NCBI GenBank assembly: GCA_947478865.1 | Contig: CANJXF010000001.1 | Location: 1-64,000 of the forward strand | Direction: 5' to 3' | DNA: 64,000 nucleotides | Origin: Verrucomicrobiales bacterium | GTDB lineage: Bacteria; Verrucomicrobiota; Verrucomicrobiia; Limisphaerales; CANJXF01 | Part shown: positions 51,217 through 52,276 of the stretch, piece after piece | Layout of the letters: each line of letters starts with the position of its first letter | Position numbering within the stretch: position 1 is the first letter of the stretch | Translations under genes and position numbers: made by a program | The notes under the pieces: model-generated | What the model was told of the DNA's origin: nothing | The model's input: only the letters and a program-made list of their open reading frames with translations | Database searches by the model: none

Positions 51217-51261
51217 TGGCGGCACCGGTTTTGGACGGCAGCGAAATTGGGCCACAAAGCG

Positions 51262-51522
51262 TCAATCCGTAAGTAAATCTCTAACAACATGAGCTGAACG
51301 TGTGACTTCTTCGGGGCGCACACCAAGCTGCGCCACCACCACCGCAGACAAACGCTGCCAGACCTTTGACTCGTCAGGTGTCTCGCCTCGCTGCTGCAAT
51401 GCCCTCACTATGTAATCGTGCATATCACCAAGAACTCCGAGTCTCGTAGCGATCGCATCCGGAATCTCGATGTGAAGCTCTTCCTCAATGGCCATGACTA
51501 ACTCGACGGTATCTAATCCCAT
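51262..51522 (-). CDS. circularly permuted acyl-carrier-protein-like protein
   Basis: The 86-residue protein begins with MGLDTVELVMAIEEE and EIPD, which matches helix II onward of acyl carrier protein (AcpP residues 36-77). After a short linker, it ends with residues matching AcpP 1-35 (QLGVRPEEVT, then VVRDLLTD). The order of the two halves is thus swapped, with the break at the phosphopantetheine site. The serine itself is replaced by Gly2, so it cannot carry the usual cofactor. The gene starts 14 bases after an attC-like site. Related ACP-like proteins starting MGLD appear in other bacteria; their function is unknown. Confidence 0.75.
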   Translation of the reverse strand: MGLDTVELVMAIEEELHIEIPDAIATRLGVLGDMHDYIVRALQQRGETPDESKVWQRLSAVVVAQLGVRPEEVTRSAHVVRDLLTD

Positions 51523-51535
51523 AGCGCGTCTTGTG

Positions 51536-51585
51536 GCCTAACTTAGATTCAGTGTCGGGTTGTGCAATTTATCGTGTAATTAGGC
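51536..51585 (-). other. attC-like recombination site A
   Basis: Read on the - strand, the 50-base site starts GCCTAAT (6 of 7 to RYYYAAC) and ends GTTAGGC (exact GTTRRRY), as integron attC sites do. The last 31 bases, from TGCACAACCCGAC to AATCTAAGTTAGGC, nearly equal those of site B. The inner 2L/2R pairing is weak and the site is short. It separates the lipoprotein gene from the ACP-like gene. Confidence 0.5.
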
Positions 51586-51930
51586 CTACTTGAGTAACTC
51601 ATACTTTATGTCATCGAGCGAAAAGAATGTGCCCGCTCCTCGATTGGCGACCATCGGATCAATATCTGCCGCCGTAACTACCGACTTGCGAAGTACGCCT
51701 GAAACACGAACGCGCTGCCCTCGATAATCCTCCAATCCCCAAGCATCAACTCCCTGAACCTGTGGACACTTGGTATTGGTGACGATGCCCTCCAACACAA
51801 CCCTCTGACCGACTCGCTGCTCCAAATCTGGCATGACTGCTGACTGCACCGGTGGTGACGATACGGATGGCTGGCAACCGAGCAAGCAAGCCGCCGAGAG
51901 CAAAAGCGTGAATATAAGTGCGGCGCGCAT
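51586..51930 (-). CDS. small lipoprotein, cassette-borne type
   Basis: The 114-residue protein has a signal peptide with lipobox (ACLLGC), so it is a lipoprotein. The mature part, RVGQRVVLEGIVTNTK, VDAWGLEDYRGQRVRVSGVL and GTFFSLDDIKYELL, fits a small OB-like beta-barrel. Proteins with the pattern D-x-W ... GKxVRVxGxL ... YxLxxxxxxLL are frequent in integron cassettes and scattered accessory genes; none has a known role. The stop directly abuts attC-like site A, and the ATG lies six bases beyond the GTTAGGC end of site B. Confidence 0.7.
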   Translation of the reverse strand: MRAALIFTLLLSAACLLGCQPSVSSPPVQSAVMPDLEQRVGQRVVLEGIVTNTKCPQVQGVDAWGLEDYRGQRVRVSGVLRKSVVTAADIDPMVANRGAGTFFSLDDIKYELLK

Positions 51931-51935
51931 GATAC

Positions 51936-51997
51936 GCCTAACTTAGATTCGGCGTCGGGTTGTGCAGCCGATTTTGTTTCATAGATGGACGCTAGGC
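51936..51997 (-). other. attC-like recombination site B
   Basis: On the - strand, the 62-base site begins GCCTAGC (6 of 7 to RYYYAAC) and ends GTTAGGC. The inner part CGGC-TGCACAACCCGAC-GCCG forms a short stem, and the right half matches site A almost base for base. The start codon of the lipoprotein gene follows after five further bases. Together, A and B define a complete cassette of about 400 bases. Confidence 0.5.
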
Positions 51998-52276
51998 CTG
52001 TCTAAAAGTGCCGTCTAGTATAATTAACGCGGTTTATGACTTCCGGACCCCTTCCAGCAAAGGCTGCGTCCGCGCCTGCCGTCGCGCCGGGGCGTCCCGC
52101 CCGACGGATCAACGCACCCACGATCCAGCCGCTGGAACATTTCAGGACCGCTCAATCTTTCCATCCTCTTTTCCGGGCGGCGAGACGAACGCCCTCCACG
52201 GCAGGCGCGGACGCCTGCCGCTACTTCGGTTCGCAAAAAAACTGGAAACCGGAATTGTCCGCTTTAGCATGAGAAA
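51998..52276. other. gene-free stretch with GC-rich hairpin
   Basis: No gene was recognised between the attC-like site and the heme-protein start; a short + strand frame at 52008-52283 is low-complexity. At 52199-52220, CGGCAGGCG and CGCCTGCCG form a perfect nine-base stem around CGGA. The hairpin resembles dispersed GC-rich palindromes. The promoter of the downstream gene should lie here. Confidence 0.5.

Follow-up and report, generated by a model that had tools for sequence, protein, structure and literature searches.

Probable remains of two integron cassettes, one of them encoding a circularly permuted acyl carrier protein, in a genome of the Limisphaerales

Positions 51246–51997 of a 64,000-nucleotide stretch of a Verrucomicrobiales genome (the whole of which we refer to as the window) probably represent the remains of two integron cassettes that lie away from any integrase. 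The first would carry a small lipoprotein gene and the second a gene whose product is, judged by its alignment to known families, an acyl carrier protein (ACP) circularly permuted so that its chain opens exactly at the active serine. The reading as cassettes is probably right and is supported mainly by a comparison of gene edges between genomes; the two putative recombination sites, A and B, do not pass as attC sites in structural tests. The cassette part alone would be an ordinary relic, and the interest of the block comes from its cargo protein. The features of the block, as well as related ones elsewhere in the genome, are collected in Table 1.

Table 1. Features of the block and integron-related features on other contigs (positions refer to the window unless a contig is named).
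Feature	Position	Strand	Remarks
Site B, attC-like	51936-51997	-	R'' GCCTAGC 51991-51997, R' GTTAGGC 51936-51942; 5-bp inner stem only, not significant
31-base right half of site B	51936-51966	-	second copy, 29/31 identical to the site A copy
Small lipoprotein gene, 114 aa, first putative cassette	51586-51930	-	cassette-like edges also in the G312 and G012 homologues
Site A, attC-like	51536-51585	-	R'' GCCTAAT 51579-51585, R' GTTAGGC 51536-51542; without inner stem
31-base right half of site A	51536-51566	-	29/31 identical to the site B copy
Circularly permuted ACP gene, 86 aa, second putative cassette	51262-51522	-	opened at the phosphopantetheine serine, Met-Gly instead
R''-like box GCCCAAT	51246-51252	-	9 nt after the permuted-ACP stop; one mismatch; GCCTAAC of G019 has the same offset
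attC	C70:7616-7709	+	strong lone site, R' with one mismatch (TTTGGGC); loci for the three attC sites are L160, L161 and L162
attC	C25:11168-11268	+	strong lone site, outside any intact integron
attC	C82:17199-17327	-	strong lone site, outside any intact integron
Integrase fragment, C-terminal piece	C3:131-388		136 bits; Phage_integrase match too
Integrase fragment, N-terminal piece	C93:12383-12526		integrase N-terminal domain match above cut-off
Integrase fragment, N-terminal piece	C102:192-323		integrase N-terminal domain match above cut-off

An earlier note on this DNA had described two sites sharing R' GTTAGGC and a near-match of R'', with nearly identical 31-base right halves, and all of this was confirmed. 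Nowhere else in the window do two stretches within 1 kb of each other agree as well as these right halves, and 10 first-order Markov simulations produced no pair of that level. The identity of the two halves stops exactly where R' ends. The likeness of A and B is confined to these right halves, and their left halves differ. By itself the GTTAGGC heptamer carries no meaning: it occurs twice in the window, both times as the R' of A or B, with about three occurrences expected by chance, and the match of both sites to the R' pattern GTTRRRY is therefore weak evidence. For R'', the attC criterion is RYYYAAC complementary to R'; the boxes of A and B are each one mismatch away from GCCTAAC, and 99 of 1839 randomly chosen points had such a box 45–120 nt upstream (5.4%). 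Beyond the two copies, the 31-mer was not found in the genome, and a search with its 21 fixed bases and up to two mismatches found it absent from the other 319 of the 320 searched genomes of the order. Likewise, the exact 21-base pattern had no copy in the viral contigs searched, the window gave no Rfam match, and the DNA of the block matched nothing in plasmid records. A foreign base composition as a mark of the block was also considered and is unsupported, since its GC content is unremarkable (52.4%, with 12% of windows lower).

Structural tests left A and B unsupported as attC sites, and at best they are decayed. When both strands of the two sites were folded as DNA, z values ranged from 0.07 to 0.53, no better than shuffles, which bears out the weak inner pairing that had been noted before. 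We also built a covariance model, R1, from 19 attC sites, many of them alike, that belong to seven integron loci in the same order. With filters off and over the 13 kb around the sites, this model gave 10.2 bits to site A and 6.3 bits to site B; its chance range in the same 13 kb comprised 28 matches, the best other reaching 10.9 bits. The rejection of A and B by R1 is strong, not absolute, because many of the training sites were alike and the model also missed a foldable stretch (z −2.9) downstream of the lipoprotein gene of the genome G312. The earlier note had held that rejection of both sites by a covariance model, together with a genome-wide spread of the 31-base half, would speak against its reading. 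The model did reject both sites, and the 31-base half is not a genome-wide repeat.

These results bear on how the block should be classified. It resembles integron cassettes and CALINs in its small same-strand genes, in the R' and R'' boxes at the gene edges, and in having a start just past R' and a stop touching R''. It also shares with CALINs the lack of an integrase beside it, and it differs from them in that A and B fail the attC model and do not fold. A CALIN is defined by at least two attC sites (PMC9024848), and because neither A nor B is recognised by the attC model, the block is not a CALIN by this rule, rather a probable former one. In the earlier note the block had been taken for a cluster of attC sites lacking an integrase; the second half of that statement holds for the window, and the first fails on the scores of both sites.

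The evidence for cassettes comes from the gene edges. Each gene has an R' box before it and an R'' box after it, neither with more than one mismatch, and the geometry previously described around them was upheld: the lipoprotein ATG lies 5 nt past site B, its stop codon TAG touches the R'' of site A, and the permuted-ACP ATG lies 13 nt past site A. We surveyed the edge boxes of three lipoprotein and 12 permuted-ACP genes, with those of G179, G513 and G548 left out. An R''-like box with one mismatch abuts the lipoprotein stop in all three genes (offsets 0, 0 and −1 in the window, G312 and G012), and the ATG is preceded at 5, 12 and 21 nt by R'-like boxes that have 0, 1 and 1 mismatch, respectively. 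The lipoprotein itself matches DUF5818 weakly and under the family cut-off. Its relatives were found in four of 306 genomes of the order, the one of the window included (the others are G312, G012 and, by a weak 32-residue match, G179), none in the other 386 of the 387 genomes of the phylum sample, and it had no match in plasmid records.

In the case of the permuted ACP, the closest relative of the window protein is that of G019, with 71% protein identity. R' stands 13 nt before the ATG in both (GTTAGGC in the window, GATAGGC in G019), R'' stands 9 nt after the stop in both, and DNA similarity between the two loci fades beyond R' and R''; only this pair is close enough for such fading to be seen. 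The box downstream of the window gene probably marks the right edge of the second cassette, as the agreement in position suggests; its R' partner is unrecognisable and would overlap the next gene. We placed the weight of the evidence on agreeing box positions and not on single boxes, because boxes are common near random points (R' with at most one mismatch nearby in about 27% of them, R'' in about 22%). We rejected a general mobility of permuted ACPs as cassettes, since our searches around the genes of relatives gave no attC and, in the other 10 of the 12 genes, any R' has at least two mismatches; two of these 10 have a one-mismatch R''. The patchy distribution of both genes counts for cassettes (4/306 genomes for the lipoprotein, 8/313 for the permuted ACP), as does the foldable stretch behind the G312 lipoprotein gene. 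Against them counts that shared attC descent would lead one to expect likeness of whole sites, yet in A and B the likeness is limited to the right halves. More broadly, the comparison suggests that lone decayed cassettes may be recognised by comparing gene edges across genomes when attC models fail.

Elsewhere in the genome, R1 detected three attC sites outside its training set, with 45.2, 44.4 and 40.5 bits (C70, C25 and C82). All are lone sites with a small ORF starting 8–13 nt past R', a feature in common with the block; they differ from A and B in their scores, 40.5–45.2 bits against 10.2 and 6.3. The gene at the C25 site matches the immunity protein family TriTu weakly and below threshold. 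A search of the genome for an integron integrase gave no intact gene, its best match reaching 136 bits against a cut-off of 265. What the search did reveal were fragments on C3, C93 and C102, so that the absence of an integrase nearby, as first remarked, stands for the window, and the rest of the genome holds fragments alone. The N-terminal pieces on C93 and C102 adjoin a 98-base repeat and are divergent from small genes, like broken integron heads. The fragments are located near contig ends, and the assembly is 97% complete in 114 contigs. In the search of relatives, 19 of 58 genomes (our own counted) contained an integron integrase match over the cut-off. Integrases in relatives, three attC sites and integrase fragments together indicate that the lineage once had integrons, of which scattered leftovers remain in this genome.

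Two repeats were seen beside these remnants. The repeat of about 98 bases has copies starting approximately at L161 8605 and 9281, L162 8738 (minus strand), L022 908, and L024 12004 and 13001. In six of eight places examined its first bases are GCCTAAC or close to that sequence and a small gene immediately precedes it; it resembles something that hits or replaces attC sites. As a second attC type it is doubtful, its right edge being without a common R' and one of two tested copies being unfolded. A motif also hinted at the end of an IS110-type element, which Pfam did not confirm. A different, interspersed repeat occupies positions 52040–52250 of the window, directly upstream of site B; the genome contains 25 matches to it, a number that counts the repeat itself and short partial matches, and copies of it also occur near the attC sites on C25 and C82.

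In our preferred explanation, an integron integrase formerly present in the lineage would have inserted both cassettes by recombining R' at its G/TTAGGC point; they would have arrived within an array or landed at an off-target site. Origins proposed for CALINs include off-target insertion, loss of intI and rearrangement (PMC8618304). The integrase gene would later have broken up, leaving only fragments in this assembly, and A and B would have decayed until their right halves and outer boxes remained and the paired inner arms that the enzyme needs were lost. Because the inner arms are gone and the integrase survives only in fragments, the cassettes are now probably fixed. We infer the past mobility of the cassettes, the order of events and their present immobility from this combination of features. 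As for the claims made before, the cassettes are favoured by edge boxes that recur in homologues, by the fading similarity to G019 and by the genomic attC sites and integrase fragments; the attC nature of A and B is disfavoured by model and folds alike, and the suggestion that the sites may be decayed fits best.

We weighed this explanation against others that account for the repeats differently. The 31-base repeats could be a shared leader, operator or promoter that arose by one local duplication and resembles attC boxes by chance, which would agree with their placement 5 and 13 nt before two start codons, with the unfolded state of A and B and with the frequency of one-mismatch boxes near random points. 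However, the repeats contain no sigma-70-type promoter (one lies in the region, on the other strand, with 0.7 expected), the box positions recur in homologues of other genomes that lack the 31-mer, the identity ends precisely with R', and other attC sites are demonstrably present in the genome. On balance, we consider a shared leader unlikely.

Direct repeats that agree at 29 of 31 positions and flank exactly one gene, in a genome that has other tyrosine recombinases, might also be the attachment-site halves of a different small element or recombinase, of about 400 bp including the lipoprotein gene, and no product of an integron. This is very unlikely: the repeat is single to this locus among the 320 genomes and absent from the viral contigs searched, and the R'' box at the lipoprotein stop in three of three homologues would be left unexplained. 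Finally, the block could be a working mobile cassette pair, with an unusual compact attC type outside the model and an integrase outside the assembly. R' is intact in both sites, R1 derives from the sites of one order and misses the foldable G312 stretch, and the incomplete assembly, with integrase fragments near contig ends, could have left a gene out. Nevertheless, neither site has an inner stem of significance, R'' is mutated in both, and the best integrase match falls at 136 bits against the cut-off of 265, which makes a working pair highly improbable.

The putative second cassette holds the more unusual protein. Few small proteins have been studied as much as acyl carrier proteins, whose defining feature is a serine at the beginning of helix II. 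The window protein matches ACPs in two stretches that come in reversed order, both in NCBIfam and among PDB sequences, solved AcpP chains included. We built an ACP profile from 72 canonical ACPs and scored 12 relatives with it, as they are and with their halves exchanged. In all 12, residues 3 onward correspond to model positions 41 onward and the C-terminal part to the model up to 37–39, so that the ACP helix order I-II-III-IV is reversed in every one, and exchange of the halves yields one single match of 61–102 bits in each. For the window protein, 44.7 and 19.4 bits became 80.8 bits after the exchange, through model positions 4–78. Compared with type II ACPs (AcpP family; TIGR00517 / PF00550), the full chain is present, with helix II onward (model 41–78) and helix I and its loop (4–39); it differs in having the halves in reverse order, with the opening at the phosphopantetheine serine, which itself is absent and has Met-Gly in its place.

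The position of the opening is consistent across the family. In 10 of the 12 proteins the sole model position lost between the halves is 40, that of the phosphopantetheine serine; the remaining two, those of Thiotrichaceae and Gemmatirosa, have a second stretch that ends at 37 and 38, respectively. All ten aligned members have an N-terminal Met-Gly where the serine would be, and in all ten the last residue is Asp. Exceptions are the G548 protein, which ends in Gly, and a relative at L059, which has Ser-Gly as its beginning within a longer frame and Cys as its last residue. Since the halves are reversed, position 40 alone is lost in most members and Met-Gly stands there, the alignments identify the chain as a circular permutation of an ACP opened exactly at its active serine.

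Within the order, 8 of 313 genomes encode a full-length permuted ACP (at least 88 bits), a count that leaves out some 50–54-bit matches in long frames; below these, scores show a gap down to 54.9 bits, where ordinary ACPs begin. The phylum sample (387 genomes) adds G536, G553, G513 and, at 54 bits, G548. Among plasmid records, 13 match the ACP-like protein and one of them, from Gemmatirosa, does so with full coverage; the names Thiotrichaceae, Gemmatirosa, Obscuribacterales and Obscuribacter are taken from record titles alone. None of the phage protein families spans the permuted ACP in full; those that match best reach only over its first half. In the open PMC literature, which excludes subscription papers, we found no description of a circularly permuted ACP of this kind.

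With regard to function, phosphopantetheine cannot attach at the usual place of the permuted ACP, as predicted from its sequence, because the serine is absent. The protein is most likely a non-carrying look-alike that binds the partners of ACP, and not an acyl carrier. Modelling the structure from two sequences gave a result of medium confidence (pLDDT 72, pTM 0.60). A Foldseek search against the PDB gave no match with an E-value below 1, and AcpP (9mlw) was among the 22 matches listed, over 40 columns only at 2.0 A, so that the four-helix ACP fold of the protein is putative. The start methionine is usually removed before glycine, and its removal here would leave a free glycine amine together with a C-terminal aspartate where the serine would be. 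One could accordingly picture a natural permuted-ACP family, moved as a cassette in this lineage, in which either the glycine amine is modified in the serine's stead, making the protein a carrier or acyl acceptor without phosphopantetheine, or the protein serves as a decoy for the partners of ACP; we hold this combined proposal to be quite unlikely. If a recurrent natural ACP opened at its defining serine does exist, it would let one examine cleanly what the ACP shape achieves in the absence of ACP chemistry, and it could bring to light a regulator resembling ACP or an uncommon attachment at the N-terminus.

The genome neighbourhoods of the permuted ACPs differ. At L075, the gene is situated between accA-like and tilS-like sequence, as judged by eye. 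In G025 (L208 2679-3734), a permuted-ACP gene lies 12 nt after a gene for an ABC-transporter-like ATPase, also recognised by eye, and the two may form an operon. Longer relatives of 182 aa are encoded at L068 3001-3546, L093 672-1217 and L102 2995-3540. These keep both permuted-ACP ends, separated by an insert of about 100 residues; two of the records are titled Obscuribacterales or Obscuribacter, and one is titled 'bacterium'.
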